NCBI GenBank assembly: GCA_030710605.1
Contig: CP092877.1
Span: forward strand, 76,062,419-76,126,418
Origin: Cordylochernes scorpioides
Taxonomy: Eukaryota; Arthropoda; Arachnida; Pseudoscorpiones; Chernetidae
Direction: 5' to 3'
DNA: 64,000 nucleotides
The position numbers were made by a program, and so were the translations under genes. Under the pieces are notes generated by a model. It made no database searches and was not told the origin of the DNA. It worked only from the letters and a program-made list of their open reading frames with translations. Of this stretch, positions 4,643 through 59,154 are shown piece after piece (the stretch's first letter is position 1; the number at the start of each line of letters is the position of its first letter).

Positions 4643-4648
4643 TAGACC

Positions 4649-5230
4649 ATGTTGTTGCTGCCCTTTGTCCTCCTCGTGGCCGGCTTGACCTGGGCCGATG
4701 CCAGGTCCATTTCAGCGAAAAAGGAATCCGAGAAAGAGTTGGTATCCAAGAACAATGCTGTTGAAGACCTGAAGACCGAAGCATCCTACCACCATGGGTC
4801 CTATGGAGGAGGTGGTGGAATGGGCTCCCACTCCCACAGCGAGGGCCACAACCACGGTCATGACCACGGCCACAACCACGACCACAAGCACGGACACAAG
4901 CATGGCCACGACCACAAGCATGGAGAAAAGCACGGACACGACCACGGCCACAAACATGACCACGGACACAAGCACGGCCACAAACACGGCCACGACCACA
5001 ACGAGAAGCACGTGCACCACCACGAGCATCACCACACCCACCATCACCACCACAAACACCACCACGGACATGATCACGGCCACAAGCACGGACACAGCCA
5101 TAACCATAAGGAAAACCACGGACACAACCACGGTCACAAACACGGCCATGACCACGGGCACGACCACAAGCACGGCCATGACCATGGGCACAAGCATAGC
5201 CACCAAGAATCTGGTTATGGGCACCACTAA
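4649..5230 (+). CDS. HisR1, secreted histidine-rich protein (intact)
   Basis: 193 codons. Residues 1-18 (MLLLPFVLLVAGLTWADA) form a clear signal peptide with a likely cut after ADA. Residues 19-46 are a charged linker. A Gly run (GGGGG) follows near residue 53. Then comes a long tract in which almost every second residue is His, as HGH, HDH, HKH and HNH. It includes the cluster HHHTHHHHHKHHH around residues 120-132 and ends SGYGHH. By my count 68 of 193 residues are His. Such HxH spacing is typical of zinc- or copper-binding secreted proteins; the true role is unknown. The ATG is seven bases after the acceptor. Poly(A) signal AATAAA is at 5305. Subfamily A, with HisR3 and HisR7. Low-complexity ORFs in other frames here are shadows. 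Confidence 0.85.
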   Translation: MLLLPFVLLVAGLTWADARSISAKKESEKELVSKNNAVEDLKTEASYHHGSYGGGGGMGSHSHSEGHNHGHDHGHNHDHKHGHKHGHDHKHGEKHGHDHGHKHDHGHKHGHKHGHDHNEKHVHHHEHHHTHHHHHKHHHGHDHGHKHGHSHNHKENHGHNHGHKHGHDHGHDHKHGHDHGHKHSHQESGYGHH

Positions 5231-5658: not shown

Positions 5659-7645
5659 CTAATCAGCAAGTCCAAGGATATCTGCACATTTCCGTAGTTT
5701 GTCCTTAGGGAGACTCTTCGTTAGTATATCCACCTCCATGTCTTCACTTTTAGTGTATTCCAGCTTGATTCCATTTTGAATTTCCTCTTTCACAAAATGA
5801 TACTTTCGGTTTATGTGCTTTGTTCGTGAAGTAATTTTGTCAGATTGTATCCAGTTTATTGCAGCCTGGCTGTCACTTTTCAAGGTAATTGGGAAAGTTA
5901 AATTTTCACAAAGTTCTTCTAGTAATCCCTTTAACCATAATACTTCTGAAATGCCTTTACATATTGAAATAAGTTCTGCTTCACATGTAGACAAGGCTAC
6001 TAAATTTTGCTTTCTACTTCTCCAGTTTATTAAGTTGTTGCCAAGTTTGACTGTATAACCTGAATAGGATTTTGGGTCTCGGGTTGTGTACCAGCTCGCA
6101 TCAGTACTTATTGTGATATTGTTGTCTTTTGACTTATATGCCAACATTTTATTTCTTGTTCCCTTCAGGTATCTATATAAATCTTTTTAACTCCAGTTAA
6201 GTGTATTTCTCTTGGATCATTACTATACTTTGATAAATTGCTGACGTTGAAGGATATGTCCGGTCGAGTACCCGTAGAAAGGTACATTAGTGATCCAATC
6301 ATTTCCTGGTATACAGTTTTATCTACTGGCTTAGAGTCCATATATTCATCTAAATTTTGATTTTGATCTCCAGGTGTCTGCACACTGTTGCATTCTTCCA
6401 GTCCAAATCTGTGAAGAATTGTATCAATATAATGAGTCTGAGATAGGCAAAATCCATCTTCTGCCCTTTTTATTTCAATTCCAATAAATGGTTCGCTATA
6501 TTTCTTCTCTATTAGAGTAACATATTTTTCTATTTCTGAGGCTAGGTTGTCATTAATTTCCTTACTAGTTACAGCAATGATGAGATCATCTATATATAGA
6601 CCCAGTATTGCATACTCTTCTCCTCTCTGGAGTTTATAGACACATGGATCACATTTGGTTCTAATCATTCCCAACTGGTATAAAATTTCATTGAACTTTT
6701 TGTTCCAACATTTTCCTGATTGTGGAAGACCATACAGGCTTTTTTTTCCAATTTACACACTTTGTTTTCCTCTCCTTTTTGCATAAAACCATCTGGTTGT
6801 CTCATGTATACTGTCTCTTCTAACTCTCCATAGAGATAAGCTGTCTTCACATCATAAGTCTTTATGATTGAATTCTGTTGTGTTGCAAGAGCTACTATTG
6901 TTCGCAAGCTTTCCTTTTTGAGTACAGGTGAAAAAGATTCCTTATAGTCCACACCATATCTCTGATTGCATCCAAAAGCAACCAGTCTGGCCTTTCTTTT
7001 ATATATGCCGTCATTTGATGTTTTCTTCGTACTGTAGACCCATTTACCATTGATTACTTTCATACCATTTTCCCTTGGTACTAGTGTACATACTTTATGC
7101 TTCTCTATCTCACTGAGCTCTTCTTCTATTGCTTTGTGCCATTCATTTCTTTCTCCACTATCCATTGTTTCTTTAAAGTTTTCCGGGATATAATGATCTA
7201 TTTCCATAATTAAGTTTGCATCATTCCTATCCTTTATTCTTTGTGAGCGTCGAACTCCTTCTTCAATCAATTTCCTTTCTTGTTCTTCAAGTCTTGCTTT
7301 GTGCCGTTCTTCTAAGATGCTCTTTGTTTCTCCTTTCTTTCTTCCTCCTTTTGCGCATCTTTCCTCTATTGGTTCAGTTTGTGTTGAGTCATTTTCAGTG
7401 TCACCACCTGGTTTTACTGAAGTATCCTCCTGAGACTTCATTTTACTCTCTGTGACAGGATGGTCTTCTTTCAAGATAAGAAAGTCTTCAACTATTTCTT
7501 CACAATTTCCTTTATAGGTCAAATGATCACAATTAGTATCTTCCTGAATATCATTTGCATAATCAATTCCTCTCTTATCTTCACTAAATTTTACTGATCT
7601 GACTTCATGGATTCTCTTTGTCATTATATCATATGGAATAACCAA
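5659..7645 (-). pseudogene. copia-1 reverse transcriptase and RNase H (frameshifted)
   Basis: Three open segments in different frames: 6665-7645, 6165-6674 and 5659-6147. The first begins in the integrase-RT linker, then has the copia RT start (KWVY, KARLVA, DYKESFSPV, DVKTAYLYG). The second contains the RT catalytic motif YIDD and the region before RNase H (MIGSLMYLSTGTRPDI). The third is copia RNase H with TDASW, WRSRKQ, LSTCEAE and the terminal RTKHI and DILTKSLP blocks. At least two frameshifts break the polyprotein. Confidence 0.85.
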
Positions 7646-7666
7646 TAAATATTCCTTTTCTACCCT

Positions 7667-8362
7667 TTAGTGAAATTTGTTTCTTCTTGGTTTGCTCTCA
7701 AGCCAATGCGTCAAACATCCAAATATTCGAATGTGTTTGACCGATGGTTTCTTGCCATTCCATCTCTGCATAGGTGTATGGTGCTTGATAGACCTGTGGG
7801 GTGTACAATTCTTAATGTATGTAGCTGTAGCAATTGCCTCTGCCCAAAACTTCATGGGTAATTTTGAGTCAATTAGTAAGGTTCTTGCTATATCTATAAG
7901 AGTCCTATTCACTCTCTCTGCGACTCCATTACTTTGTGGTGAGTATGTGGTGGTATGTTGGTGATGGATCCCACTTCTCTTGAAAAGTCCTTCAAATCTA
8001 GAGTTACAAAATTCAGTTCCATTGTCCGTTCTTACACCTTTTATTCTAAGACTTATTTCGTTTTCGGCTCTTGCTTTAAATTCTTCAAATATTTCAAAGG
8101 TCTCATCTTTTGATTTCAGGAAATATACAAAGATTCTTCTACGGTAATCATCTACTATAACAATAAAATACTTAGATCCTCCTAAATATTGATATTGCAT
8201 TGGTCCACATAAATCCATATGAATCAACTGCAGGGGCTTAACTGTATAATTTTCCGTAATTTTATATGGCTTCTGAACCAATTTTCCCATTATGCATGCC
8301 TCGCACTCTGGTAACCTTTTGAATTTTAGATCCAATCCTCTTACAATATGTCCTTGAATCAT
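7667..8362 (-). pseudogene. copia-1 integrase core
   Basis: Contains the end of the zinc-binding domain (CEACIMGK) and then the DDE core: D in HMDLCGPM, D in RTDNGTEF and E in QSNGVAERVNR. The conserved HRSIKHHTPMQRW block follows. It is cut off from the RT frame downstream by a frameshift near 7650. Not functional in the present copy. Confidence 0.85.
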
Positions 8363-9503
8363 TTTTTCATGTATTCTTCATTTATATGGTTTAATATTTT
8401 ATGCCATAAACTTATATTGCTATTTTTATTTGATAAATGTATATTTATAACCATGACATTTTCATTTTTTGATATTGGTACAATTCTTAGTTTTGTTTCC
8501 ATCATAAACATTCTATCTTTAATATATGCCTCAGCAACTAAATAATTCCCTTCATTATAAATTTTTGCTCCATTCTTATTGAAAATAACTGAATTTCCTT
8601 TGTTGACTAATTCTAATACTGACAAGAAATTATTTCTTAGATTTGGTACATGTAAGATATCTTTGATGCAAATATTTTCTTGGCCTTCACTTGTGCACAT
8701 GTAGTAAGTCTCATATCTCCTTTGGCTGTGGCTTGAGTAGTTTTGCCCTTCTCAGCTAGGTTGATTTCACTTTCATAATCTACCACATTTTCTATCAAAG
8801 TTAGGTTTGGGGTTAAATGTGCGGTGCATCCTGAATCTATACACCATATTTTCCTATCATTTCTCCTATCTGGTGAATCTTCAAATTCTTTTACATATGT
8901 TTCAAATGCTTGCTCATTAATTCCACTTTTCACAGTATCTACTAGGTTACTTGAATGTTCCCTACTGTATTTGTGATTTCTTAAATCAGGAGTCCATTTC
9001 TTTTGATATCCTTGTTTCTGTTTATCTCGAAACCAGCTATCATTAGCTAGATGTCCCTTTTTATTACAAACAAAACATCTTTTTTTGCTGAAATTGTTTA
9101 ACTTTTCTATTTTTAATTCTGTATGCATGTTCATGCCCATTCTCAACTGATTGATTTAATCTCATATTTATTCTTGACTCCTCTTCTCTTAGAATTTGTT
9201 GAATCTCTTCAATTGTTGCCTCTCTCTTAGATCGTAAGACAATAGCAATATTTTCATACCTTGGATGTATGCCTCTGACAATATGAAATGAAAGTTCTCT
9301 TGTGGGAAATTGATGCCCTAATGATGAACTTCTAGCAGCAAATTTTTTTGCCCTTGTTATATATTCATCTACAGTTTCATTATCTTTCATTTTATGTTCT
9401 TTAATTCTAAGCCTATATCAATAATTTTATCTTCCAAATTGCCTGTGTACGTTTTTCTCAGTGAGTCCCATACTTTCTTAGCATTTGTTTCTCCTATGAA
9501 CAT
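8359..9503 (-). pseudogene. copia-1 gag and protease remnants
   Basis: Overlapping minus-strand fragments (8359-8700, 8637-9146, 9064-9390 and on to the Met at 9501-9503). Gag text includes ETVDEYITRAKKF. The zinc knuckle CFVCNKKGHLAND has lost its last Cys. The retroviral-type protease motif is IDSG, in WCIDSGCTAHL. The gag start abuts the LTR fragment directly, so the leader, primer site and N-terminus are deleted. Confidence 0.75.
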
Positions 9504-10036: not shown

Positions 10037-10238
10037 CTGGGCTAAGAGGGGTACATTCGCAGTAGTTTAGCATAAATGTAAATTTTCTTTAAAAAAATAG
10101 TAAAAAATGGCCATTAATTCGTAAAAAAAAGGCAACAAAGGCTCACTTTGCTAATTTGTTTAGCAGGAGCCCCACGTCGCTGTAAATTTCCAAAAAACCA
10201 AATCCACCCCCCCCCAAGCCCCAGCCCTTACCCCCACC

Positions 10239-11234
10239 ATGAATCCCAAATCCCATTCCCACTGTCCCTCATCAACCTTTTCAATAGCCCGATCACCTTC
10301 CCCGACCCGGCATAACCTCTCCACCCCCATTTATTGCCCGGACCCCTCCTCCAATATAAACTCCAAACTCACCCCAATCAATATCCCCATCCCTTCCCCC
10401 AACCCTCAGTCCCTCTCCATTCCCATCAATAGCCCGTTCTCTTCCCCCAAACCTCAGTCCCTCCCCACCCCCATCAATAGCCCGGTACTTTCCCCCAACC
10501 CTCAGTCCCTCCTCACCCCCATCAATAGCCCGGTCTCTTCCCCCAACCCTCAGTCCATCCCCATCCCCAGCAATAGCCTGGCCCCTTCCCCCAACCCTTA
10601 GTCCCTCTCCATCCTCAGAAATAGCCCAGTCCCTTCCTTCAACACTCAATCCCTCCCGAACCCCAGCAATAGCCCGGTCCATTCCCCCAAAACGCAGTCC
10701 CTCCCTAACCCCAGCCATAACCCGGTCCCCTCCACCAAATTCCCGTCTCTCCCCTCCCAGACCCCCAGACCCACACAAGCCATCATGGAGGCCCTTACCC
10801 GCAGCAGGCAGGGGGCCCTCACCACCGGCCCCCAGGTCACCATCTGCAGCCAGCTCCAGGTCAAATACTTCCAGGCAGAGGAGGCCCCCAGGAAGCTCAC
10901 TACCCGATCCTGGGAGATGATGCCCGAGGACAGCCTCCTCATTGCCTTGGGGAGGAAGAAACAGACCACCCCTTCCGCCCCTGCTTCCTCCCCAAAGAAG
11001 AAGAGGCTGAGATTTTTTATGTGCGGAAGGAAAAGGAGTACCTCCCATCTCAGCACCGACGAGGTTCTCCGGGCAGCGGCGGAGTTGCTGCTGAAGATCC
11101 AGCTGGAAAAATCCCTCCAGGAGATAGCCGAAGAAGACGCCACCAGGAGGGAATGGAAACGTCGTAGGGCGGCTATGTCCTCCTCCGAACTAGAGCTTCG
11201 CCAACTCGAAAAGGAGGAGCGACATGGTGGCTGA
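10239..11234 (+). pseudogene. PS1, Pro/Ser-repeat protein (in-frame stop)
   Basis: The frame runs 332 codons from the conserved CCACCATGAATCC start, but a TAG at 10599-10601 replaces the CAG of the repeat CCTCAGTCC. Upstream are repeats of about 16 residues (NSPVLSPNPQSLLTPI type). Downstream the conserved core is intact from ATG 10785 (ATCATGGAGG, good initiation context) to EERHGG, 149 codons. If initiation really occurs at 10785, PS1 is functional. A second exon (11355-11500) keeps a 48-codon frame. A C-rich tract follows to AATAAA at 12041. A-type, with PS3. No family recognised. Confidence 0.55.
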
Positions 11235-12577: not shown

Positions 12578-12582
12578 CCAAT

Positions 12583-13981
12583 TGTTGAAACTAGTTTGCA
12601 TAGTTTTTTGCATATTTTTTGCATATTTTTCGTTTTGGAAGGATTCATTTGTTTAGGTTTGATTTTTGTAGTTTTTTATGTGGTTTGGTCACGTGCTTGG
12701 GACCCTATAAAAAGAAAGGCGCAGCCAGAGGAAAGAGAGGAGTGTGTGGTAGCTGGTGGTAGGAAGACCTTGTAGAGCTGTCTCTCGAGTAGCAGGTGGC
12801 CAAGGAAGCTGTCTCCCGAGTAGCAGGTGGCCAAGGAAGCTGTCTTCTGAGTAGCAGGTGGCCAAGGAAGCTGTCTCCCGAGTAGCAGGTGGCCAAGGAA
12901 GCTGTCTTCCGAGTAGCAGGTGGCCAAGGAAGCTGTCTCCCGAGTAGCAGGTGGTCAAGGAAGCTGTCTCCCGAGTAGCAGGTGGCCAAGGAAGCTGTCT
13001 CCCGAGTAGCAGGTGACCAAGGAAGCTGTCTCCCGAGTAGCAGGTGGCCAAGGAAGCTGTCTCCCGAGTAGCAGGTGGCCAAGGAAGCTGTCTCCCGAGT
13101 AGCAGGTGGCCAAAGAAGCTGTCTCCCGAGTAGCAGGTGGTCAAGGAAGCTGTCTCCCGAGTAGCAGGTGGCCAAGGAAGCTGTCTCCCGAGTAGCAGGT
13201 GGCCAAGGAAGCTGTCTCCCGAGTAGCATGTGGCCAAGGAAGCTGTCTCCCGAGTAGCAGGTGGCCAAGGAAGCTGTCTCCCGAGTAGCAGGTGGCCAAG
13301 GAAGCTGTCTCCCGAGTAGCAGGTGGCCAAGGAAGCTGTCTCCCGAGTAGCAGGTGGCCAAGGAAGCTGTCTCCCGAGTAGCAGGTGGCCAAGGAAGCTG
13401 TCTCCCGAGTAGCAGGTGGCCAAGGAAGCTGTCTCCCGAGTAGCAGGTGGCCAAGGAAGCAGTCTCCCGAGTAGCAGGTGGCCAAGGAAGCTGTCTCCCG
13501 AGTAGCAGGTGGCCAAGGAAGCTGTCTTCCGAGTAGCAGGTGGCCAAGGAAGCTGTCTCCCGAGTAGCAGGTGGCCAAGGAAGCTGTCTCCCGAGTAGCA
13601 GGTGGCCAAGGAAGCTGTCTCCCGAGTAGCAGGTGGCCAAGGAAGCTGTCTCCCGAGTAGCAGGTGTCCAAGGAAGCTGTCTCCCGAGTAGCAGGTGGCC
13701 AAGGAAGCTGTCTCCCGAGTAGCAGGTGGCCAAGGAAGCTGTCTCCCGAGTAGCAGGTGGCCAAGGAAGCTGTCTCACAAAGACAAGTGGCCAAGGAAGC
13801 TGCTTCCCAACGGGGGTAAAGGTAACCTCTAGTCGAGGTCAATCGTCATATGTGAATAAATATCATATTCATGATTAAAATCGGTTGTTCATTTCTTCCG
13901 GTTCACCACCTGCCTATCGCTACCTTCAAGTTTTGATTTCTTAGACGGATTTATTTTTTACATTTGTTGTTAGTTTTAACA
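12583..13981 (+). repeat. BEL/Pao 5' LTR (1.4 kb)
   Basis: TG...CA ends. Promoter TATAAAAA is at 12706-12713 and AATAAA lies near 13854, on either side of a 31-bp minisatellite. It is about 410 bp longer than the 3' LTR because it has more repeat units and a segment of about 60 bp before them. Confidence 0.9.
12777..13806 (+). repeat. 31-bp minisatellite in 5' LTR
   Basis: About 33 head-to-tail copies of a 31-bp unit (AAGGAAGCTGTCTCCCGAGT plus AGCAGGTGGCC), mostly one substitution or fewer from consensus. Since 31 is not a multiple of 3 and the unit lacks minus-strand stops, all three minus frames are open by chance. Confidence 0.95.
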
Positions 13982-14017
13982 TTTTGGTGAGCCGGACGCG
14001 ATAGGCTTGGTGGTGAA

Positions 14018-15033
14018 ATGGAGGTGGTGAACGAAATAAGAAAAGCTGCAAGAATTGCTTTACTGAAAAAGTTAATGATTTACATGCAGAGTTGAAAAAG
14101 GCTTCCATTGATAAAAATAGGATATATGCAAAATATGATAGGTTGGAATCTCTCCATTTGGAGCTGGTGGCATTAAATGAACAATGCCAGGGAATTTTAT
14201 TGGCCCAAGAAGCTACTACTGATGAAGAAATTGATGGAGAATTTGAGAATTGTGAAGTCTACATAATGGAAAGATATAATTTAGAGTATAAAATTAGCGT
14301 AATGCGTGAGCAGGAAAGGGATGCTCTTTCTACTAATGGTAATAATGAGGTTGAATCTAGAGAGGTAAACATTACAAAAGATAAAGAAGCTGTTGATACA
14401 GCTGATCATGAGGCTGGGAATGAGAAGGCCAAAAATACCTTAACTAAAGATGAGGAAACTAAAGTCAGCAAGGCAAGTGATGAATATATATTAGAAATGG
14501 ACTTTAATAAGGAAGAGTTGGAGCAAGAAGAAAATGCTAATGAAAAATATGAAGAGGCAGATTTAAAGAATAAAGAAGACTCGGAAGCTGAAACCAAGGA
14601 CAATGGAGTAGAGGATTCTAAAACTGCAATTAAGGGTTATGAATCGGTGAACAATTCTAGATCGGTAGCTGAAGGCGCTGATCAAGTGGAGATTTCAGAC
14701 GATGAAACTGAATCCATTGATGATACTGAGGAAAGAGTTGTCAGAGTTCCAGCATCGAGGAAATTGGTGGAAGCAAGACTAACTGGAGATACGGAATTTG
14801 GGATAAAGAATAATTACAAAGAAACAGAATCCCAAGATTTGAAAACCATAAATAAATCTGATTATGCCGAGAATAAGGACGATAAATACAACAAGGGAAA
14901 AGATCATGATGGAAATGAAGCGAAAAATATAGATGAAGAACAAGGTACTGATTCAAAGGTGGAAGAAAAGCTAGATGTAGAACAGGGTACTGATTCGAAG
15001 GTAGAAGAAAAAATTACTGATACAAAAGATTAG
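14018..15033 (+). pseudogene. BEL/Pao gag-like ORF (frameshifted)
   Basis: ATG at 14018 opens MEVVNEIRKAARIALLKK. Losing one A in the run at 14066-14070 shifts the frame; the continuation (NDLHAELKKASIDKNRIYAK...) is open from about 14071 to TAG 15031. The first 80 residues look like a BEL/Pao gag N-terminus (KYDRLESLHLELVALNEQ). The rest is a Glu/Lys/Asp-rich, probably disordered region ending in a short duplication (EEQGTDSKVEEK / VEQGTDSKVEEK). Homopolymer sequencing error is possible. Confidence 0.6.
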
Positions 15034-15396
15034 TTGAATGAAGGGTTTATCGGGGGAGTTAATGAAAATCCACCTGAGGTAAAGGGATACTATTTGCCCC
15101 ATCGCCCTGTATTTAGGTGTGAGTCCAAAACGACGCCTATACGGCCAGTATATGACGACGCTTCCTGTCGAGGACACGGCGGACTCGCCTTGAAACGGTA
15201 TTTGAAGAGGAGACCCAATCTACTGAGGAGAATTCCTGAAATAAGGATAAAATTTCGAGAAAATAAGTTTGGAATTTTGGCCGACATGAGGAGATATTTC
15301 CAGGTGATGGCCATCAAGGAGAATGATTGGGACTACCTCAGATTTCTTTGGAAAAAGAGGATGGACGCTTATGGGGCAATCTCCGGTGGTGTGTAG
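15034..15396 (+). pseudogene. BEL/Pao reverse transcriptase fragment
   Basis: In the same frame as the gag-like ORF, after its TAG. It shows the start of BEL/Pao RT: YYLPHRPVFR, then VYDDASCRG (family VVFDAS), RPNLL, KFRENKFGILADMRR (RT motif A, the first catalytic Asp) and DYLRFLWK. The frame ends before the motif C catalytic box, so the polymerase is incomplete. Confidence 0.8.
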
Positions 15397-15455
15397 GGAG
15401 GATAAAGTACTCCTGCAGATCGTATAGGGGTCTTTCTCTGAATGACTATCTAGAG

Positions 15456-15860
15456 AAGGAATCAAAGCCAGATGCTTCCAAAGCTGATTCCAAGAAGGCC
15501 TCTGCCACTTCCTCCAAAAACAAGAAGTCAAGGATGAAATCCATAGACCTGGATATTGAGGCCATGGTGTACAGTCTTTCAAGAACAGAGCTGGACAACC
15601 TCTTTGAGAGAGAGGGCAAGATGGTGGCTCAGGACAAGCTGGAGAGGGAGAGGGTGGATGCCAAAAACTCCATGGAGGAATATATATACGAGATGAGGGC
15701 AGGCCTGGAAGAGTTGTACGGGCCTTACGTGACAGAGAGTGACCGGAGTCACATAATAAATGTATTGAGGGAGAAAGAGAACTGGTTCTATGACGAGGGG
15801 GAGAACCAGATCGGGAGTGGCTATGTTGCCAGGGTGGATGGGCTCAGGGTAAATTGGAGA
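15456..15860 (+). pseudogene. Captured host HSP110/HSPA4-type chaperone fragment
   Basis: Within the frame 15327-15893, residues from about 44 on match the C-terminal helical domain of the HSPA4/HSP110 branch of the Hsp70 superfamily: IDLDIEAMVYSL, then EGKMVAQDKLERERVDAKN, EEYIYEMR, ESDR, ENWFYDEGENQ and YVARVDGLR. These follow the family order with the family spacing. A Lys/Ser/Ala linker precedes them. It is continuous with no intron, consistent with capture through RNA. Just upstream, GLSLNDYLEK resembles the BEL/Pao RT motif, suggesting the fusion point. The ATPase domain and substrate-binding beta domain are absent. Confidence 0.88.
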
Positions 15861-15914
15861 CCCGGTGGTGAGGTGAGTCGGGGAGTATACTGAGAGGCAG
15901 CCTGCGCTGGAGGA

Positions 15915-16070
15915 GCTAGGAAGACCTTGTAGAGCTGTCTCCCGAGTTGCAGGTGGCCAGGGAAGCTGTCTCCCGAGTAGCAAGTGGCCAAGAAAGCTGT
16001 CTCCCGAGTAGCAGGTGGTCAGGGAGGCTGTCTCCCAAGTAACAGGTGGCCAGGGATAGTTCCCGAAGTT
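15915..16070 (+). repeat. LTR-type 31-bp repeats inside the element
   Basis: AGGAAGACCTTGTAGAGCTG, as at 12761 in the 5' LTR, followed by about four diverged 31-bp units, located between the chaperone fragment and the 3' LTR. Probably a duplicated piece of LTR. Confidence 0.75.
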
Positions 16071-16185
16071 TATAAAAACAGATATGGTAGAAGATTAAGA
16101 GATCTGAAAAATATATCTCTGGATAATGTGGCCATTGTTTAAAATTAATTTTGAAAATAATAATTGTCAAAATTTGGTGGGAGGA

Positions 16186-17173
16186 TGTTGAAACTAGTTT
16201 GCATAGTTTTTTGCATAGTTTTTTGCATAATATTTTGTATAAGTTTTTGCATGTTTTTTGCATATTTTTCGTTTTGGAAGGATTCATTTGTTTAGGTTTG
16301 ATTTTTGTAGTTTTTTATGTGGTTTGGTCACGTGCTTGGAACCCTATAAAAAGAAAGTCGCAGGCCAAGGAAGCTGTCTCCCGAGTAGCAGGTGGCCAAG
16401 GAAGCTGTCTCCCGAGTAGCAGGTGGCCAAGGAAGCTGTCTCCCGAGTAGCAGGTGGCCAAGGAAGCTGTTTCCCAAGTAGCAGGTGGCCAAGGAAGCTG
16501 TCTCCCGAGTAGCAGGTGGCCAAGGAAGCTGTCTCCCGAGTAGCAGGTGGCCAAGGAAGCTGTCTCCCGAGTAGCAGGTGGCCAAGGAAGCTGTCTCCCG
16601 AGTAGCAGGTGACCAAGGAAGCTGTCTCCCGAGTAGCAGGTGGCCAAGGAAGCTGTCTCCCGAGTAGCAGGTGGTCAAGAAAGCTGTCTCCCGAGTAGCA
16701 GGTGGCCAAGGAAGCTGTCTCCCGAGTAGCAGGTGGCCAAGGAAGCTGTCTCCCGAGTAGCAGGTGGCCAAGGAAGCTGTCTCCCGAGTAGCAGGTGGCC
16801 AAGGAAGCTGTCTCCCGAGTAGCAGGTGGACAAGGAAGCTGTCTCCCGAGTAGCAGGTGGCCAAGGAAGCTGTCTCCCGAGTAGCAGGTGGCCAAGGAAG
16901 CTGTCTCCCGAGTAGCAGGTGGCTAAGGAAGCTGTCTCCCGAGTAGCAGGTGGCCAAGGAAGCTGTCTCACAAAGACAAGTGGCCAAGGAAGCTGTTTTC
17001 CCACGGGGTAAAGGTAACCTCTAGTCGAGGTCAATCGTCATATGTGAATAAATATCATATTCATGATTAAAATCGGTTGTTCATTTCTTTCGGTTCACCA
17101 CCTGCCTATCGCTACCTCCAAGTTTTGATTACTTAGATGGATTTATTTTTTACATTTGTTGTTAGTTTTAACA
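16186..17173 (+). repeat. BEL/Pao 3' LTR with minisatellite
   Basis: 988 bp. Same ends, TATA box (TATAAAAAG near 16344) and downstream sequence as the 5' LTR, but only about 20 copies of the 31-bp unit (about 16365-16996). Confidence 0.9.
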
Positions 17174-18245
17174 CCAATGTTTGTTCTAGCCTTCCAATTT
17201 CAGCATAAGTTTAGAGAGTTATAAAAATCTATTAGGAAATTTGTTCAAGCATAATTATAGAAGGATCCTTTGTAAGATTTCTTGAAAACAAAGATACTTT
17301 AGCCAGTAAATCTTTTTATTACCTCGACGTTTCGACAAAAATCTTTTGTCCTCGTCAGGAGCAAACAAAAATTAAAACATTTAGCAAGGCTTTAAAAATA
17401 ATTCTAAAGTCTTCTTACTGAGATGTTTAGGAACTATAAGAGTATGAATATTTGAATAGGGAGGATATTAATAATGATAGCTATTTTTAAAGAAAATATT
17501 TATTGAACAAAGGTGAACAGGCTCATACGATAAGGAGGATTTGGACTTGAGAAGGTTCAATTTTTCTGAGCCCAAAACAGTCTGAGCCCAAAAACAGTTA
17601 CAACGTTCGGCGAAATAATAACTACAGACAAAATCTCTCGCTCTCTACTTTGTTTATTCTATCTACACAGGCCCTTGTGGCGTTAATAAAACATTTATTT
17701 TAGTAAAAAACATAAAAAGCTTTCGTAAAAAATAAAATAATTGGAACTCACTGATTTTTAAATGAGCTTTTTTTATACTGATAAGCATCAATATGGCATT
17801 TAATGAATCGCTAATCAACTGAAACTAAATTGGTAAATAAACAAATGATCCACTATCTGCCTGTTATTCTATAAATGTTGAGTTATGAATATTATATTTA
17901 AAGTACAAAAACATCTACCAATTGAGTTTATTTGACTTGGAAATAGAAATACATCACAAATTCTAATAGTAAACACAAATAACTATCATTGTCTTGAAAG
18001 ATCGGTGTGGTGAGCTTTTTTCCTATAATTAAAGAATCCAATTTTGTAGTCATTTATTTTTCAAACCATCGCTATAATCATTTGGAGTTTAGCAATTTTA
18101 TATTCAATCCAATAAAGCATTATTATTTAGTCTCGGCCATATTGGCCTATCTATATAAGGGATTATATATTAAGTTCCCATCAAAAAATGTTTAACAAAA
18201 AAGAGAATCGAATATATTTTTATCTGGTTTTAAAAGGTAGCTATC
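17174..18245. other. Spacer before HisR2
   Basis: AT-rich sequence homologous to 31552-32490 in unit 3. Holds the CCAAT duplication, a foldback-derived piece (17285-17420) with a hammerhead-like core, and no coding frame. Confidence 0.6.
17326..17361 (-). ncRNA. Hammerhead-ribozyme-like motif
   Basis: On minus: CTC-CTGACGA-G, stem II GACAAAA / TTTTGTC, GAAAC, GTC, GAG. The core, a GUC cleavage triplet and a 3-bp stem I are present; stem III is minimal. The copy at 31697-31732 has a compensatory pair change in stem II. Confidence 0.45.
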
Positions 18246-19164: not shown

Positions 19165-19639
19165 ATGTTGGTGTTACCCTTTGTTCTCTTCGTGGCCGGC
19201 CTGACCTGGGCCGATGCCAGGTCCATCCCATTGAAAGAGGAATCCGAGAAAGAGTTGGTGTCCAAGAACAATGCCGTTGAAGACCGAGGCATCTTACCAC
19301 CATGGGTCCTATGGAGGAGGCGGTGGAATGGGCTACCACTCCCACAGCGAGGGCCACAACCACGGCCATGATCACGGTCAGAATCACGACCACAAGCACG
19401 GATACAAGCATGGCCACGACCACGACGAGAAGCACGTGCACAACCACGAGCATCACCACAACTACCATCACTACCACAAACACCACCACGGACATTATCA
19501 CGGCCTCAAGCACGGACACAGCCACAACCACAACGAGAACCACGGACACAGCCATGGTCACAAGCACGGCCATGACCACGGGCACAACCACAAGCTCGGT
19601 CATGACCATGGGCACAAACATGGCCACCAAGAAAGTTAA
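19165..19639 (+). pseudogene. HisR2, histidine-rich protein (8-bp deletion)
   Basis: The ATG and signal peptide (MLVLPFVLFVAGLTWADA) are intact. In the linker, paralogues read GAAGACCTGAAGACC, but here one 8-bp step of that direct repeat is lost (near 19280). The translated frame then leaves the His-rich reading and stops at 19371. The His-rich frame continues untranslated (19271-19639). The gene also lost its last codons and much of the 3' UTR: the coding tract ends QES and runs straight into TTAATAAACTTTC. AATAAA is at 19638. B subfamily. Confidence 0.8.
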
Positions 19640-21808: not shown

Positions 21809-21998
21809 ACAGGCCGAAGACGGGTACATTCGCCCTAGTTTAGCATAAAAGATAAAATTTCTTTAAACGATTTGGTGAAAAAAAACAATTTTTAGAAATA
21901 AAAGGCAACAAAGGCTCACTTTGCTAAATTTTTTAGCAGGAGTCCAACGTCGCTGTTTATTAAAAAAAAAAAAAAATCCCCCCCCCTAAATCCCAGCC

Positions 21999-23021
21999 AT
22001 GAATTCCCTACTCCATCCACACCGTCCCTCATCAACCCCATCGATATCCCGATCACCTCCCCAAACCTTGCAATCCCTTCCCACCCCCTTTAATAGCCTG
22101 GACCCTTACCCCAATATGAACTCCCTCCTCTCACAAACCAATAGCCCCATCTCTTCCTACAACCCCCAGTTCCTCCCAGACCTAAACAATAGCCTGGCCC
22201 CTACACCCAACCCACTGTCCCTCCCGACTCCCAGCAATAGCCCGGTTCCTTCCCCCAATATTCCGTCCCTCCCTACCCCCAGCAATAACCCTGTCCCATT
22301 CCCCAGCCCGCACTCCGTCCCCACCCGAATCAATAAGCTGGTCCCTTTCCCCAACCCGCAATCCCTCCACACATCCAGCAATAGCCCGGTCCTATCCCCC
22401 AACACTCACTCTCTCTCCACCTCCATCCATAGCCCGGTTCCTTCCCCCAAAATTCAGTCCCTGTCCATCTCCAGCAATAGCCCTTATTCTACCCTCAACC
22501 AGCAGTCCCTCCCCACCCCCAGCCATAACCATGTCCCCTCCACCAAATTGCCGTTCCTCCCCTCTCAGACCCCCAGACAAACCATAGCCATCATGGAGGC
22601 CCTGAACAACAGCAGGCAGGTCACCATCTGCAGTCAGCTTCAGGTGAAATACTTCCAGGCAGAGGAGGCCCCCAGGAAGCTCATCACCCGATCCTGGGAG
22701 ATGATGCCCGAGGACAGCCTCTTCATAGTCTTGGGGAGGAAGAAAATATCAACCCCTTCCACCCCTGCTTCCTCCCCCAAGAAGAAGAGGCTGAGATTTT
22801 AAATGTGCGGAAGGAACAGGAGAACCTCCCACCTCAGTAACACAGACGAGGTTCTCCGGGCAGCGGCGGAATTGCTGCTGAAGATCCAGCTGGATCAATC
22901 CCTCCAGGAGATAGCCGAAGAAAACGCTACCAGGAGGGAATGGAAACGCCGTAGGGCGGCTATGTCCTCCTCCGAATTAGAGCTTCGCCAACTTGAAAAG
23001 GAGGAGCGACATGGTGGCTGA
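21999..23021 (+). pseudogene. PS2, Pro/Ser-repeat protein (nonsense)
   Basis: Opens at CAGCCATGAATTC. Repeats of about 16 residues (NSPVPSPNIPSLPTPS type) lead into the conserved core (QVTICSQLQVKYFQAEEAPR, SWEMMPEDSLF). The reading stops at TAA 22800-22802, where paralogues have a Phe TTT codon in KKRLRFFMCG. The remainder stays in frame to EERHGG (23019). The seven residues GALTTGP are absent, as in PS5 and PS6. The second-exon frame is at 23162-23307, and a C-rich 3' tract runs to about 23840 with AATAAA near 23899. Confidence 0.6.
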
Positions 23022-24927: not shown

Positions 24928-26226
24928 GTAGGTACGTAGTTCTGAACGAGCCGACGATATACCGTTGTATGTTTCACTTTACATCCCTGACCTAAGGATT
25001 ATAGAGACAAGCTAAGAGATCCAAACCATGAACGTCAAAGTATATTTTACGTGATTTTAAACAGTGTATTTACTAAAACTTTAAAAAAGTAAAACTTTAA
25101 AGTAACAACTTGAACCAGTTAACATCTATTTGAATATTTGTGAGAGATCCAAAACTATTTTTAGAATAGCTATAAACACATCTTTGTATAATTTTCTCAT
25201 TTGTTAAACATCGGTGAATAAAAATAAACCAATAAGTATTTGTATTACGATTGGTATATATAAAATCTTTTGTATGAATTTATTCACTATTTAAACAGCA
25301 AATAATAGAGACAAGGTAATTAATGGGTATTAAATTTTGTCGATATATAGGAATCAATACAACATTTCTCTGATGTATTCGAACAGTTAATATGGCTATA
25401 TATTTTGGTATAGGGATTCTTCAAAAATATATCTTTACATGAACCTTCATTGGCTGCTTCTTAGACAAATGATTTATATATAAACAATCTTTAATTTAGG
25501 TTTGTAGATCTTAGAAAATTGTTGTTTTACAATTTTTAGGGCACGAAAAAAGATAGAAATATCCATATTGTTATTTATCATTATGGCGTAGCTTTCTTAT
25601 CCCTCTTGATCGTATTCAATTTTGAATTTTAAAATTTTGGGGTTTTTCCATTCTAATATCCAAGACACATCTATATTATTCTTAGAAAAAAAAATATTTG
25701 TTAGAAATAACCTTCTCTGTACAGAGCACAAAATCTGTCTGGCTGTATTTTAAATTTGTAGAAATTTGAAAAAAGAAAATACATTTCCTTTCCTATTATT
25801 TTTAAACGTTCATTAGAGAAAATTCAAAAGCAAGGACCTGTTAACATTATACTTAATTTCGTCAAAACCTAAACCTTTGAGTTTTTCAAGGTTTAGTATT
25901 TTAAAATATTATATTTCGAAATTTATTTACGTGAAAAAGGTTTTTCGCATTTTTTATTCATGCCTTATTTGTTTACATTCACACGCACACAGGTACAAAA
26001 GTTTAAATTAGCTTCAAAGAAAAAAAAGTTGATCAAATACTTTGATCTCAAATTTCAAAAATAATTACAAATGCTAGTTTCAAAGTATTATTAATAAGAT
26101 ATATTTGAAAGACATTTCATTATAATACTTTAATTTGCGATTTCATTTATATGATGTTTTATAAGATTATATGCAGATCCTTTTTAAGAAGGTGAAAAGA
26201 GATAAATTTGTTTGCTGTGGTTCCAG
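24928..26226 (+). other. HisR3 intron 1
   Basis: AT-rich intron to the acceptor GGTTCCAG (26226). Closely related to the HisR7 intron (57845-59148) over most of its length. No internal gene. Confidence 0.6.
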
Positions 26227-26232
26227 TATACC

Positions 26233-26814
26233 ATGTTGTTTCTGCCTTTTGCCCTCCTCGTAGCCGTCCTGACCTGGGCCGATGCCAGGTCCATCCCAGC
26301 AAAAGAGGATTCCGAGAAAGAGTTGGTGACCAAGAACAATGCCGTTGAAGACCTGAAGGCCGAGGCATCCTACCACCATGGGTCCTATGGAGGAGGTGGT
26401 GGAATGGGTTACCACTCCCACAGAGAGGGCCACAACCACGGCCATGACCACGGCCACAACCACGACCACCAGCACGGACACAAGCATGGCCACGACCACA
26501 AGCACGGGCACAAGCACGGACACGACCATGGCCACAAACACGACCACGGACACAAGCACGGCCACAAACACGGCCACGACCACAACGAGAAACACGTGCA
26601 CAACCACGAGCATCACCACACCCACCATCACCACCACAAACACCACCACGGACATGATCACGGCCACAAGCACGGACACAGCCACAACCACAACGAGAAC
26701 CACGGACACAACCACGGTCACAAGCACGGTCATGATCACGGGCACAACCACAAGCACGGCCATGACCATGGACACAAACATGGCCACCAAGAATCTGGTT
26801 ATGGACACCACTAA
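26233..26814 (+). CDS. HisR3, secreted histidine-rich protein (intact)
   Basis: 193 codons, the same length as HisR1 and HisR7. Signal peptide MLFLPFALLVAVLTWADA, linker RSIPAKEDSEKEL, Gly-rich hinge with SYHHGSYGGGGG, then the HxH tract with the central HHTHHHHHKHHH cluster and the end SGYGHH. The ATG chosen is the one aligned with all paralogues, six bases after the acceptor; an upstream in-frame ATG at 26212 lies inside the intron. Poly(A) signal AATAAA at 26889. Subfamily A. Role inferred only: secreted metal-binding or structural. Confidence 0.85.
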   Translation: MLFLPFALLVAVLTWADARSIPAKEDSEKELVTKNNAVEDLKAEASYHHGSYGGGGGMGYHSHREGHNHGHDHGHNHDHQHGHKHGHDHKHGHKHGHDHGHKHDHGHKHGHKHGHDHNEKHVHNHEHHHTHHHHHKHHHGHDHGHKHGHSHNHNENHGHNHGHKHGHDHGHNHKHGHDHGHKHGHQESGYGHH

Positions 26815-29042: not shown

Positions 29043-29243
29043 CTGGGCTAAGAGGGTACATTCGCACTAGTTTAGCATAAAATGTAAATTTTCTTCAGAA
29101 AATAGTAAAAAATGGCCATCAATTCGTAAAGAAAAAGGCAACAAAGGCTCACTTTGCTAATTTATTTAGCAGGAGCCACACGTCGCTGTAAATTTCCAAT
29201 TAAACCAAATCCACCCCCCAAGTCCCGACCTTTACCCCCACCC

Positions 29244-30182
29244 ATGAATCCCAAATCCCATCCCCACTGTCCCTCATTCTCCCCATCAATAGCCCGTTCA
29301 CCTTCCCCGACCCTGCATACCCTTTCCACCCATATTTATTGCCCAGAACCCTCCTCCAATATGAACTCCCTCCTCACCCCAATTAATAGCCCCATCCATT
29401 CTCCCAACATTCAGTCCTTCCTCACCCTCATCAATAGCCCTGTCTTTTCCCCCAACCCCCAGTTTCTCAACACCCACAGCAATAGCCCGGTCCCTTCTTC
29501 CAAAATTGAAACCTTCTTCTCCCGATTCCATAGCCCTGTCCTTTCCTCCAACCCTCAGTCCCTTCCCATCCCCAGCAATAGCCCGGCCCCTTCCCCCAAC
29601 ACTCAATCCGTCCCGAACCCCAGCAATAGTCCGGTCCCTTCCCTCAAAACGCAGCCCCTCCCTACCCCCAGCCATAACCCGGTCCCCTTCACCAAAAATC
29701 CGTCTCTCCCCCTCCCAGACCCCCAGACCCACCCAAGCCATCATGGAGGCCCCGACCACCAGCAGGCAGGGGGCCCTCACCACCGGCCCCCAGGTCACCA
29801 TCTGCAGCCAACTCCAGGTCAAATACTTCCAGGCAGAGGAGGCCCCAAGGAAGCTCACTACCCGATCCTGGGAGATGATGCCCGAGGACAGCCTCTTCAT
29901 TGCCTTGGGGAGGAAGAAACAGACCACCCCTTCCGCCCCTGCTTCCTCCCCAAAGAAGAAGAGGCTGAGATTTTTTATGTGCGGAAGGAAAAGGAGAACC
30001 TCCCATCTCAGGTTCTCCGGGCAACGGCGGAGTTACTGCTGAAGATCCAGCTGGAAAAATCCCTCCAGGAGATAGCCGAAGAAGACGCCACCATGAGGGA
30101 ATGGAAAGGCCGTAGGGCGGCTATGTCCTCCTCCAAACTAGAGCTTCGCCAACTCGAAAAGGAGGAGCGACATGGTGGTTGA
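29244..30182 (+). pseudogene. PS3, Pro/Ser-repeat protein (two frameshifts)
   Basis: Starts CCACCCATGAATCCC. The first part has the usual repeats of about 16 residues. One extra C in the run near 29706-29712 shifts the frame, so the conserved core (MEAPTTSRQ..., QVTICSQLQVKYFQ) is read only from the +1 frame (from about 29742). A 10-bp deletion near 30011, removing the codons after RTSHL, then shifts back to the original frame for the helical end (LLLKIQLEKSLQEIAEED to EERHGG). Initiation at MEAP would give a truncated protein ending SGQRRSYC at 30042. A-type, with PS1. Confidence 0.6.
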
Positions 30183-32625: not shown

Positions 32626-33677
32626 GTAGGAACTTAGTCCTGGACAAGCTGACGATATACCACGGTTTCACTTAACGTCCGTGAGGTAAGGGATATAGTT
32701 AAAGGCTAGTGGATATCAAAGCATGTTTTTCGTGATATTTAGGATTATCTACTGAATCAAAGAAAAGTGAAGCTTGTGAGTAACAACTTAAACAAGTTAT
32801 AATCCATTTGAATATATGTGAGATACAAACAAATATTTGAAGAATAGCTATGCAAAAATCTTTTTGAGATATCCCTCAATAGTTAAACAGCGGTGATTCA
32901 AAACAAAAGAATAACGATGTGTATTGCGATTGGTATAAACCATTAAAAACTATTTTATATGAATTCACTCACTATTTGAACAGCCATTAATAGATGGTAA
33001 TTTGTCGATGTATAGTATTTAGTACAAAAATCTTTTTTTGTAGTCGATCAGTGTTCATGGTTATATATATTTGTGTACGGATGCTTGAAAAAACATCTTC
33101 AAAGGAACCTTTATTGGCTATACACGAGGCGGATGAAATAAATATATATGAAAAAAATATAAAAATTAAAAATAAGTGGGTCAGTTATTGATATTTAAAA
33201 TAATGAAAGCATGTCCTGTCCAAAAGCACATGTGTTTTTTAGATGGCAGAGCGCCAACTAGTGGAACAGCAATCAACTAAACGATAATTAGCCAACCTAA
33301 TTTCTTGATTTTATCATTTATCAACGTTTAGTTGATTTCTGTTCCACTAGATGGGCCTCTCTGCCATCAATTTGTTGGCATGTTTTTTTTTGTTGCAATT
33401 TTCAAGGCACGGAATAAAAAGAAAGATATTGGTAATTTTATAATCACTATGGCAAGCTTTCTTATCTCTTTAGGTCGCATGTAATTTTGTATTTATAAGC
33501 TTAGGTTTCATCCCTTATATGCGATATTAAAAAAAAAAACATTTCATTATATTACGTTAATTTGGGATTTTATATATATGATATTTTATGAGACTTTCTT
33601 CTCTATTATTCTAAGCTATATACAGATGTTTTTTTGGAAGGATAAATAAAAAGACATTTGTTTGCTGTCTGTTCCAG
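32626..33677 (+). other. HisR4 intron 1
   Basis: AT-rich intron to the acceptor GTTCCAG (33677). Contains a foldback MITE at 33242-33368. Confidence 0.55.
33242..33368. mobile_element. MITE-like foldback in HisR4 intron
   Basis: Inverted arms of about 42 bp: GATGGCAGAGCGCCAACTAG... at left and ...CTAGATGGGC...TGCCATC at right, with a centre of about 40 bp. Absent from the other HisR introns. Confidence 0.7.
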
Positions 33678-33683
33678 CAGATC

Positions 33684-34253
33684 AGGTTGGTGTTTCCCTT
33701 TGTTCTCTTCATGGTCGGCCTGACCTGTGCCAATGCCAGGTCAATCCCATCGGAAGAGGAATCCGAGAAAGAGTTGGTGTCCAAGAACAATGCCGTTGAT
33801 GACCTGAAGACCGAGGCATCTTACCACCACGGGTCCTATGGAGGAAGTGGTGGAATGGGCTACCACTCCCACAGCGAGGGCCAAAACCACGGCCACAATC
33901 ACAACCGCAATCACGGACACAAGCATGGCCACGACCACAAGCACGGAGAAAAGTACGGACACGACCACGCCCACAAACACGACCACGGACACAAACACAG
34001 CCACAACCATGGTCACAACCACGACAAGAAGCACGTGCACAACCACGAGCATCACCACACCCACCATCACCACCACAAACACCACCACGGACATGATCAC
34101 GGCCACAAGCACGGACACAGCCACAACCACAACGAGAACCACGGACACAACCATGGTCACAAGCACGGCCATGACCACGGGCACAACCACAAGCACGGTC
34201 ATGACCATGGGCATAAACATGGCCACCAAGAATCTGGTTATGGTTACCACTAA
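33684..34253 (+). pseudogene. HisR4, histidine-rich protein (start codon lost)
   Basis: The aligned start codon reads AGG at 33684-33686 (CAGATCAGGTTGG) where HisR5 and HisR6 have ATG. The frame beyond it is otherwise fully open for 188 codons: LVFPFVLFMVGLTCANA, linker, Gly-Gly hinge, HxH tract and the end SGYGYH. The next in-frame ATG (33711) would begin midway through the signal peptide, leaving about eight hydrophobic residues, so secretion is unlikely. TGG to TGT in the signal peptide (W to C) is a further change. AATAAA at 34336. B subfamily. Confidence 0.75.
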
Positions 34254-36833: not shown

Positions 36834-37025
36834 CAGGCCGAAGACGGGTACATTCGCCCTAGTTTAGCATGAAAGATAAAATTTCTTCAAACGATTTGGT
36901 AAAAAATGACCAATTTTTAGAAATAAAAGGCAACAAAGGCTCACTTTGCTAATTTTTTAGCAGGAGTCCAACGTCGCTGTTTATTTAAAAAAAAACAAAT
37001 TCCTCCCCCCCCCCAAGTTCCAGCC

Positions 37026-38069
37026 ATGATTTCCCATTTCCATCCTCACCATCCCTCATCAAACCCATCAATAGCCCGATCACCTCCCCAAACCCTGCAA
37101 TCCCACCCCACCCCCATTCATAGCCCAGACCCCTACCCCAATGTGAACTTCATCCTCCCTCAAATCAATAACCCTCTCCCTTCTCACAACCCCCAGTTCC
37201 TCCCAATCCCAAACAATAGCCCGGCCCCTACACCCAACCCTCAGTCCCTCCCCACTCCCAGAAATAGCCCGGTTCCTTCCCCCAATATTCCGTCCCTTCC
37301 TACCCCCAGCAATAACCCTGTCCCATTCCCCAGCCCGCACTCCGTCCCCACCCGAATAAATAAGCTGGTCCCTTTCTCCAACCCACAATCCCTCCCCACA
37401 TCCGGCAATAGCCCGGTCCTATCCCCCAACACTCACTCTCTTCCCACCTCCATCCATAGCCCGGTTCCTTCCCCCAAAATTCAGTCCCTCTCCATCACCA
37501 GCAATAGCCCTTATTCTACCCTCAACCAGCAGTCCCTCCCCACCCCCAGCCATAACCATGTCCCCTCCACCAAATTGCCGTTCCTCCCCTCTCAGACCCC
37601 CAGACAAACCATAGCCATCATGGAGGCCCCGACCAACAGCAGGCAGGGGGCCCTCACCACCGGCCCCCAGGTCACCATCTGCAGTCAGCTCCAGGTAAAA
37701 TACTTCCAGGCAGAGGAGGCCCCCAGGAAGCTCACCACCCGATACTGGGAGATGATGCCCGAGGACAGTCTCTTCATAGCCTTGGGGAGGAAGAAAATAT
37801 CAACCCCTTCCGCCCCTGCTTCCTCCCCAAAGAAGAGGCTGAGATTTTTTATGTGCGGAAGAAACAGGAGAACCTCCCACCTCACCAACACAGAAGAGGT
37901 TCTCCGGGCAGCAGCGGAATTGCTGCTAAAGATCCAGCTGGATCAATCCCTCCAGGAGATAGCCGAAGAAAATGCTACCAGGAGGGAATGGAAACGCCGT
38001 AGGGCGGCTATGTCCTCCTCCGAATTAGAGCTTCGCCAACTCGAAAAGGAGGAGCGACATGGTGGCTGA
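37026..38069 (+). CDS. PS4, Pro/Ser-repeat protein with conserved core (intact)
   Basis: 347 codons from CAGCCATGATTTCC. Residues 1 to about 195 are repeats of about 16 residues rich in Pro, Ser and Asn (NSPVPSPNIPSLPTPS type), probably disordered. The core begins at MEAPTNSRQ (37620): QVTICSQLQVKYFQAEEAPR, YWEMMPEDSLFIALGRKK, a basic patch KKRLRFFMCGRNRR, then a predicted helical segment (EVLRAAAELLLKIQ, SLQEIAEE, EWKRRRAA, LELRQLEKEE) ending HGG. No signal peptide or membrane segment. Codons are strongly C-rich against AT-rich surroundings. I recognise no family. The TGA may be bypassed by splicing to 38211-38356. Confidence 0.6.
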   Translation: MISHFHPHHPSSNPSIARSPPQTLQSHPTPIHSPDPYPNVNFILPQINNPLPSHNPQFLPIPNNSPAPTPNPQSLPTPRNSPVPSPNIPSLPTPSNNPVPFPSPHSVPTRINKLVPFSNPQSLPTSGNSPVLSPNTHSLPTSIHSPVPSPKIQSLSITSNSPYSTLNQQSLPTPSHNHVPSTKLPFLPSQTPRQTIAIMEAPTNSRQGALTTGPQVTICSQLQVKYFQAEEAPRKLTTRYWEMMPEDSLFIALGRKKISTPSAPASSPKKRLRFFMCGRNRRTSHLTNTEEVLRAAAELLLKIQLDQSLQEIAEENATRREWKRRRAAMSSSELELRQLEKEERHGG

Positions 38070-39862: not shown

Positions 39863-39931
39863 GGTTATGGGTCCCGACTACGCCCCAAATTTGAAGAAGC
39901 AAACCTAAAGTGAAACTGCTAAGCCTAACTC

Positions 39932-42343: not shown

Positions 42344-43479
42344 TCACTCGAAACCCTACCAGACGGATATAAGCCAATTGGAAGTAGATGGGTTTATAAG
42401 CTAAAATCCCATCCCAACTCTACGGCACCTAAATTTAAGGCTAGACTTGTAGCTAAGGGTTACACACAAAGGAAGAACGTAGACTATTTCGACACCTTTA
42501 GTCCTGTTGTCAGATATGATGGACTTCTCATGTCTCGGAACAAGGACGATATCGATTCTATCGTCCAGGAACTATCTCACGAGTTCAATATAACGTCTAG
42601 AGATGCAGATTATTTCGTAGGACTTCAGATTGAACAATCAGAGGATAGATCGAAGATCTATATCCACCAATCTTCATACATAAACAAGATTTTAGATAAA
42701 TTCAACATGATTGATTGCAAACCCGCAGCAGTACCCATGGACCCGAGTACAGTCCTAACTAAAGCTGATTGCCCAGACTTAGATAAAAATGGAAATTCAC
42801 CAAAATTTCCTTACAGAGAAGCCGTAGGCTCACTAATGTTTGCCTCTTCTGTTTCTAGACCGGACATAGCTTTTGCAACATCACAATTAAGTAAATACCT
42901 TAACAACCCAGGACAGACACACTGGACAGCAATTAAAAATGTATTTCGCTACTTGAAAGCAACACCACAATTAGGAATATTATACGCTAGCCATCAAGAG
43001 TTAACAGGTTACTCAGATAGCGATTATGCTAGGGACATTGATTCAAGGAAAAGTACTACAGGTTACATCTTCATGTTAAACCATGGTGCTGTTTCATGGT
43101 CAAGCCAAAAGCAATCGACAGTTGCCCTCTCGACAACAGAAAGTGAATATATTGCTGCCTGTGCTGCTACTAAAGAAATGGTCTGGCTACGCAGACTTTT
43201 AAGGATATCGGGATTAAGATGGACAGACCCACAGTACTCAACATGGATAATCAAGCAGCCATAAAGCTAGTGCAGAATCCTGAGTTCCATAAGAGAACGA
43301 AGCACATTGATGTACGATATCACTACATTCGTACTAAACAGGAAGATGGTGAGCTGATCACAAGATATGTCAGCACTCTTCAGCAGACGGCTGACCTCCT
43401 GACGAAACCTTTGGGACCGAAACATTTCAAGCGGCTCTTAGAAAACTTAAACGTTATAAATTTCAAGAGGGAGTGTTAG
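42344..43479 (+). pseudogene. copia-2 RT (catalytic centre deleted) and RNase H
   Basis: RT begins in frame after the stop. At about 42513-42522 it jumps from SPVVRYD to GLLMSRNKDD: the fingers/palm with the YVDD box are missing, probably by deletion at a short TATGATG-like match. The rest of the RT and RNase H follow (GYSDSDYARD, SSQKQSTVALSTTESEY). A 1-bp loss near 43218 shifts the last 86 codons (RTKHIDVRYH, DLLTKPLG). No reverse transcription possible from this copy. Confidence 0.85.
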
Positions 43480-44558: not shown

Positions 44559-44564
44559 AAGATC

Positions 44565-47383: not shown

Positions 47384-47568
47384 ATAGGGCGAATATATTC
47401 GCCCTAGTTTAGCATAAAAGATAAAATTTCTTCAAAGGATTTGGTAAAAAATGATCAATTTTTAGAAATAAAAGGCAACAAAGGCTCACTTTGCTAATTT
47501 TTTTTAGCAGGAGTCCAACGTCGCTGTTAATTAAAAAAAATCCCTCCCTCCCCCCCCAAGTCCCAGCC

Positions 47569-54726: not shown

Positions 54727-54916
54727 CAGGCGAAGACGGGTACATTCGCCCTAGTTTAGCATAAAATATAAAATTTCTTCAAACGATTTGGTGAAAATAA
54801 CCAATTTTTAGAAATAAAAGGCAACAAAGGCTCACTTTGCTAAATTTTTTAGCAGGAGTCCAACGTCGCTGTTTATTAAAAAAAAAAAAAATCCCCCCCC
54901 CCCCCAAATCCCAGCC

Positions 54917-59148: not shown

Positions 59149-59154
59149 GAGACC

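Follow-up and report, generated by a model that had tools for sequence, protein, structure and literature searches.

Acute transforming retroviruses carry host cDNA in place of part of pol, and their defective genomes are moved by a helper. In LTR retrotransposons, template switching between elements and mRNA at short similarities is described in the accessible part of PMC5408686, which adds that the resulting copies retain their LTRs and are able to transpose again, with Tan et al. 2016 as its reference for LTR-mediated retroposition in metazoans; PMC8232201, in its accessible part, agrees on the LTR/mRNA template switching, and we compare with Tan et al. 2016 through these two sources. Bs1 of maize, as portrayed in the same part of PMC5408686, is an LTR element with parts of three cellular genes; the element described here is unlike Bs1 in its animal host, its BEL/Pao affiliation and its chaperone gene. 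Crocodilian endogenous retroviruses, according to the accessible part of PMC4299795, are vertebrate retroviral elements with captured genes, and they are not BEL/Pao.

Our locus lies in a 64,000-nt stretch (hereafter the window; C15:76062419-76126418) of the genome of Cordylochernes scorpioides, which comprises 2.62 Gb in 24 contigs. We propose, with a probability of about 0.83, that the window holds a non-autonomous element made of BEL/Pao pieces which acquired a fragment of spliced HSPA4 mRNA by template switching, probably once, and that the fragment was likely transferred between families and spread in trans.

The insertion and its surroundings

A 4.6 kb LTR-retrotransposon insertion occupies 12583-17173 of the window, with two LTRs ending in TG..CA and the identical 5-bp target-site duplication CCAAT on the left (12578..12582) and on the right (17174..17178). 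At an empty paralogous site, in a tandem-array unit at ~31.5 kb, the joined flanks align around a single CCAAT without the insert (145/161 bases near the joint; 84.7% over 812 columns). All internal features are on the + strand, as are the LTRs (TGTTGAAAC...TTTTAACA in both). The 5' LTR (12583..13981) has ~33 copies of a 31-bp minisatellite and the 3' LTR (16186..17173) ~20 copies of the unit; K2P between the comparable parts of the pair is 0.014 on the left (141 sites) and 0.040 on the right (180 sites).

A putative tRNA primer binding site, TGGTGAGCCGGACGCGAT (13985..14002), recognized by its position beside the 5' LTR, precedes ORF1 (14017-15033). The first part of ORF1 (14017..14330) is a BEL/Pao gag N-terminal domain, which matches the N-terminal gag region of the longer copy L041 at 31% identity over 88 aa (E 1e-10, three proteins compared); that this part is itself a captured gene was rejected on account of the gag match. 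The second part (14331..15030) is acidic and lysine-rich with a 42-bp repeat, and occurs beside Pao pol sequence in P0123, a predicted protein of the same species. RT1 (15034..15358), an N-terminal BEL/Pao reverse transcriptase piece recognized by sequence comparison that included P0123, meets at AGGATGG, letters shared by both sides, an upstream-of-RT tail of a second BEL/Pao family (15359..15408). The latter leads into an RT2 remnant (SCRSYRGLSLNDYLEK, 15409..15458), the relatives of which were found with a query derived from L030. The family switch at 15359 is evident from the alignment of L030 with the long form L025, which begins at AGGATGG, continues as a single block of 1429 columns and has no counterpart ahead of it. 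The first-pass annotation had noted a BEL/Pao RT piece next to the chaperone sequence; it is there, as two pieces from two sources.

RT2 is fused to the host-derived HSPA4/HSP110 fragment (15459..15923), the frame of which changes near 15855. At GGAAG the fragment is joined to a piece of LTR sequence with four 31-bp units (15919..16057), followed by a 3' untranslated stretch (16058..16185) that is 88-89% identical to L039/L040 and ends in the polypurine tract GGTGGGAGGA (16176-16185). As had been proposed, the fragment lies between the two LTRs; the element has CCAAT on both flanks.

Neither of the two window ORFs alone (ORF1 and the RT1-side frame) gave a match in the Pfam scan. The earlier assignment to BEL/Pao nevertheless stands by an indirect route: in P0123, a partial gene model whose joins may be the predictor's, ORF1 and RT1 sequence is joined to a Pao peptidase (PF05380, E 1.7e-15), and L041, the source of the gag match, carries DUF1759 (E 1.6e-19) and DUF1758 (E 8.9e-5). 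Judged from such sequence links, the window copy belongs to BEL/Pao. No protease, RNase H or integrase was found among the frames of 13982-16185, where most of the RT is also missing, and we have filed the copy as a non-autonomous derivative without a complete gag-pol.

The tandem array in the window holds seven gene-like frames, extremely histidine-rich and secreted-looking (HGHDHGHKHGH...; 4646-5230, 19235-19639, 26206-26814, 33615-34253, 44418-45314, 51247-51711 and 59110-59736), with a DNA similarity of 77-92% between the first and the other six. Another frame repeated in the same array units is rich in proline and serine and has a KKKRLRFF...KERHGG part conserved in several copies (~10164-11234, 21990-22802, 29130-30182, 36927-38069, 47455-48543 and 54818-55940). 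Two frames of each kind were run against Pfam, without a match. Two Copia-type retrotransposon copies are also present (5659-9417, - strand; 39929-43479, + strand), with RVT_2 in one frame and a copia-type gag in another, as is a transposase piece with a DDE_3 domain (60324-60932, - strand, E 2e-16), which we take to be Tc1/mariner-like.

The HSP110 fragment and its host gene

The open frame 15327-15893 contains all three peptides which the first-pass annotation had attributed to the C-terminal helical domain of the HSP110 branch, and the protein comparisons bear out that attribution. The translation matches Pfam HSP70 (PF00012) with E 4.5e-8; the HSP110-branch protein Sse1 of yeast gives E 8e-21 (residues 61-173 against 518-630), against E 2.5e-7 for the best Hsp70. 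The best HSPA4-type match among 121 collected proteins shows ~50% identity over 111 aa; P0003, a predicted protein of the same species that carries the element's own sequence (87% over 54 aa), was set aside. Only the C-terminal portion is present, without the ATPase domain or the full length, and the stretch is an HSP110 fragment, not an HSP110 gene. It had been placed at 15456..15860; host-derived sequence is indeed there, but its true limits are 15459-15923, and over the final ~70 bp the HSP110 sequence is read in a different frame.

A genome search with scorpion HSPA4 (P0009; 53 of 389 candidates scored) located a split HSPA4 gene on C3 with exons at ~3.888-3.890 Mb, and the genome search with the fragment found matching exons at C3:3878664-3878994; strand, order and distance suggest that both exon groups belong to one HSPA4 gene. 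The C3 stretches compared (500 and 440 bases, reaching TENWL) provide at most 332 comparable bases. Over the captured stretch the host gene has introns of 416 bp (GTAGGT..GCAG), 55 bp (GTAAGT..ACAG) and 56 bp (GTAAGT..GTAG), with the exon ends ...EPMPDASK/gtaggt, gtgtgcag/ADSKK...FERE/gtaagt, gtgtacag/GKMVAQ...TES/gtaagt and tgttgtag/DRSH. The elements run straight through all three sites, the introns being precisely absent, and because of this we take a spliced HSPA4 mRNA as the source. The fragment is thus intronless, as first described, and away from the genomic locus, the intron-bearing HSPA4 gene being on C3 and the window on C15. Measured against the host exons, long forms show an identity of 0.95-0.97, short forms one of 0.89-0.95 and the window copy 305/332; the window copy includes exact matches of 30, 43, 26 and 36 nt.

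Two other loci were rejected as host gene or donor. The intron-less HSPA4-like gene L037 (C22, 4031-6316, - strand) encodes 762 aa, ~40% identical to arachnid HSPA4; its translated protein is identical to HSPA4L of C. scorpioides. It is likely an old retrogene with a possible functional role, and its resemblance to the fragment is low (34% identity over the region, 71 bp at 80%). Being a gene, L037 is excluded from the copy counts. The C19 locus proved to be another element copy, in which an inserted element, Gypsy-type by eye, lies inside the BEL/Pao-HSP110 chimera (L041, 4337-8331).

Copies, likely parent and likely passage between LTR families

The genome search with the fragment, in which 150 of 1352 candidates were scored, gave at least 155 matches, listed in part. 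The sequences read cover 24 places from this search (L001-L020 and L037-L040) together with C19 (L041-L043) and C3 (L044, L045); for 16 of L001-L020 a longer surrounding stretch was included (L021-L036). All 19 other loci of the first set contain the fragment, which makes at least 20 with the window. RT2 runs continuously into the fragment in 16/20 loci, window included, the exceptions being L004, L013, L018 and L020, so that the expectation of the same fusion point in other copies was confirmed. At sequence level the fusion point, GACTATCTAGAAAAG followed by GAACCAATGCC, is common to 15/18 loci compared, some of which differ by point changes or carry a small deletion; its carriers are spread over many contigs. 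L023, L039 and L040 join instead after RPVFDAS, probably by later deletions. About 50 rows of the fragment search have the pattern of L040, the one read (query from residue 1, 54-61% identity).

Exact five-base duplications flank 11/13 copies (window, L021, L022, L023, L027, L028, L030, L031, L033, L035 and L040), and those of L036 and L039 are one base off. L028 and L035 share one site, likely as a duplicated stretch, and L024 and L025, which are separated by 30 kb and point in opposite directions, may stem from a single duplicated copy. K2P within LTR pairs is 0.007-0.036 over the aligned parts in 11 loci; a pair was not found for L024, L025, L026, L032 and L038. L021 sits inside a third LTR type and could be a nested insertion. 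Short-LTR pairs 2.2-2.8 kb apart, with no HSP110 match among the matches listed, occur at C19:68713358-68715863, C7:47480785-47483687, C1:157748554-157751117, C1:157865024-157867617, C1:188218648-188221729 and C18:61417379-61419939; these related elements may lack or have lost the cassette.

In the longer copies gag, protease and the RT N-terminus precede HSP110, which extends nearly as far as its C-terminus; these copies appear to represent the original state of the chimera. L024-L026 have a BEL/Pao-type protease, a pre-RT stretch, RT2 and HSP110 past SKPKPKVEP, and then a polypurine tract and an LTR start; L025 also has a zinc-knuckle sequence by eye. RT2 and HSP110 form a single 256-aa open frame in L024 and L025. 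Judged from P0009, the long forms stop short of the HSP110 C-terminus, and no poly(A) was seen in them before the polypurine tract.

A genome search for RT2 (query L030; 150 of 9749 candidates scored) returned 147 rows of 85-88% identity, with open frames up to 1752 aa, the remaining three rows being HSP110 chimeras on C17 and C4. This abundant RT2-related family is likely the parent; the RT2 context suggests that it is BEL/Pao throughout, and it could supply proteins in trans. No scored LTR match lay within 20 kb of the listed parent copies (40 of 2369 candidates scored).

In a host-rooted tree the short forms make up one clade (support 100) and four long forms another (support 79); within the short-form clade supports are low, 65 at the window's node and 13-61 just below it. 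The window copy nests inside short-LTR copies, beside L021 and L023, as do L038, L039 and L040, whose LTRs, or the pieces left of them, are similar to those of the window copy (75-81% over the unique parts); supports there are 61-96, with several lower nodes at 13-35. Since copies with the window-type LTR nest within copies with other LTRs, template switching likely carried the fragment from one family to another. In the window copy HSP110 ends at GGAAG, where the LTR sequence resumes and the letters are shared, and this ending together with the nesting makes entry of the cassette into the window LTR family by template switching likely. The GGAAG junction is later than the RT-HSP110 junction. 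Shared letters at the junctions are few (5-7), and the RT-HSP110 junction shows almost none.

Alternatives, selection and relation to known systems

In the likely order of events, with packaging and switching read from the junctions, spliced HSPA4 mRNA would have been packaged with element RNA and, probably on a single occasion, copied into the element when the reverse transcriptase switched templates; the cassette would then likely have passed between retrotransposon families and spread in trans by way of an autonomous BEL/Pao relative. We consider it unlikely that the capture instead took place in DNA, by insertion of the element into, or its recombination with, a processed HSPA4 pseudogene that was already present (a LINE-type retrocopy). 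The intron-less gene on C22 indicates that HSPA4-family mRNA was likely retroposed before; that gene, however, is too dissimilar to be the donor, whereas identity between the copies and the C3 gene is 89-97%. A retrocopy also sits poorly with long forms that stop before the C-terminus and show no poly(A) ahead of the polypurine tract, and with the single RT-HSP110 frame of L024 and L025. Chance resemblance or a mis-joined assembly is barely credible in view of the Sse1 match, the 305/332 identity to host exons and the recurrence of the same fusion on many contigs.

HSP110 is a partner of Hsp70, and the captured piece belongs to its helical domain, so that the fragment might have been kept for a useful protein, such as a Gag-Pol-HSP110 fusion bringing Hsp70 to particles during their assembly. 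The 256-aa open frame (of what may be one duplicated copy) speaks in favour of this, as do the three pooled dN/dS values, out of five, that fall below 1 (0.68 among short forms, 0.68 between short and long forms, and 0.61 between long forms and L038-L040) and the ratio of 0 nonsynonymous to 3 synonymous among changes common to all copies relative to the host. Against it, pooled dN/dS is 1.16 within long forms, the short-form stem has 9 nonsynonymous and 4 synonymous changes, and variable sites in 17 short forms are distributed 28:26:30 over codon positions 1:2:3 (parsimony-informative 6, 12 and 10). Changes in long forms only are 5 nonsynonymous and 3 synonymous, host-window differences by codon position are 7, 8 and 12, and pooled dN/dS from short forms to L038-L040 is 1.11. 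Frameshift indels relative to the window interrupt the fragment in 17/23 other copies, 10/12 copies aligned on both sides of P0009 residue 693 shift the HSP110 frame close to it, and in the window copy that frame differs from the ORF1/RT1 frame. The open frame conserved across copies for which the first-pass annotation had suggested a test is not supported, substitutions looking near neutral, and strong purifying selection is rejected by the frameshifts, dN/dS, stem changes and codon-position counts. Retention for a useful protein is accordingly improbable, more so than the pseudogene origin. The codon-position distribution and the frameshifts make it most likely that the fragment is a passenger without protein function now; the three low dN/dS values and the 0:3 ratio allow for early or host-side constraint as a possibility, and weak constraint is conceivable.

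As improbable as retention for a useful protein is the idea that the cassette acts as a hostage. Since it lies in sense orientation, any antisense small RNA silencing it would pair with the host HSPA4 mRNA as well. If so, the chaperone piece would shield the element family, which would explain the spread of the cassette across LTR families. Given the exact matches between window and host, spillover of small-RNA silencing onto the chaperone gene is testable. One genome here offers the donor gene, the likely parent and long and short copies under different LTRs, and the steps by which an animal retrotransposon picked up and shared an mRNA can be read from its DNA.

Among the titles and abstract openings listed in searches of open-licence full texts, nothing appeared on HSP110 capture or pseudoscorpion retrotransposons, nor on several BEL/Pao families having one captured piece of a chaperone gene in common. 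With the BEL/Pao retrotransposons in the accessible part of PMC3118150 the long forms share Gag (DUF1759), a protease region (DUF1758) and a Pao-type RT; the window copy, in contrast, is without protease, most of the RT, RNase H and integrase. Like the acute transforming retroviruses, the chimera has host cDNA where part of pol would be and is defective, with a helper proposed to move it; unlike them, it gives no indication of infection or of a product under selection, and it was amplified inside one genome. It resembles LTR-mediated retroposition in metazoans, to the extent covered by the two sources named above, in having an mRNA fragment inside an LTR element, explained there by template switching at short shared letters and here by a proposed template switch, and differs in that one fragment occurs in at least 20 loci, under different LTRs, with the donor and likely parent in the same genome. 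Capture of mRNA by LTR elements is already known; the unusual part is a cargo common to several LTR families.
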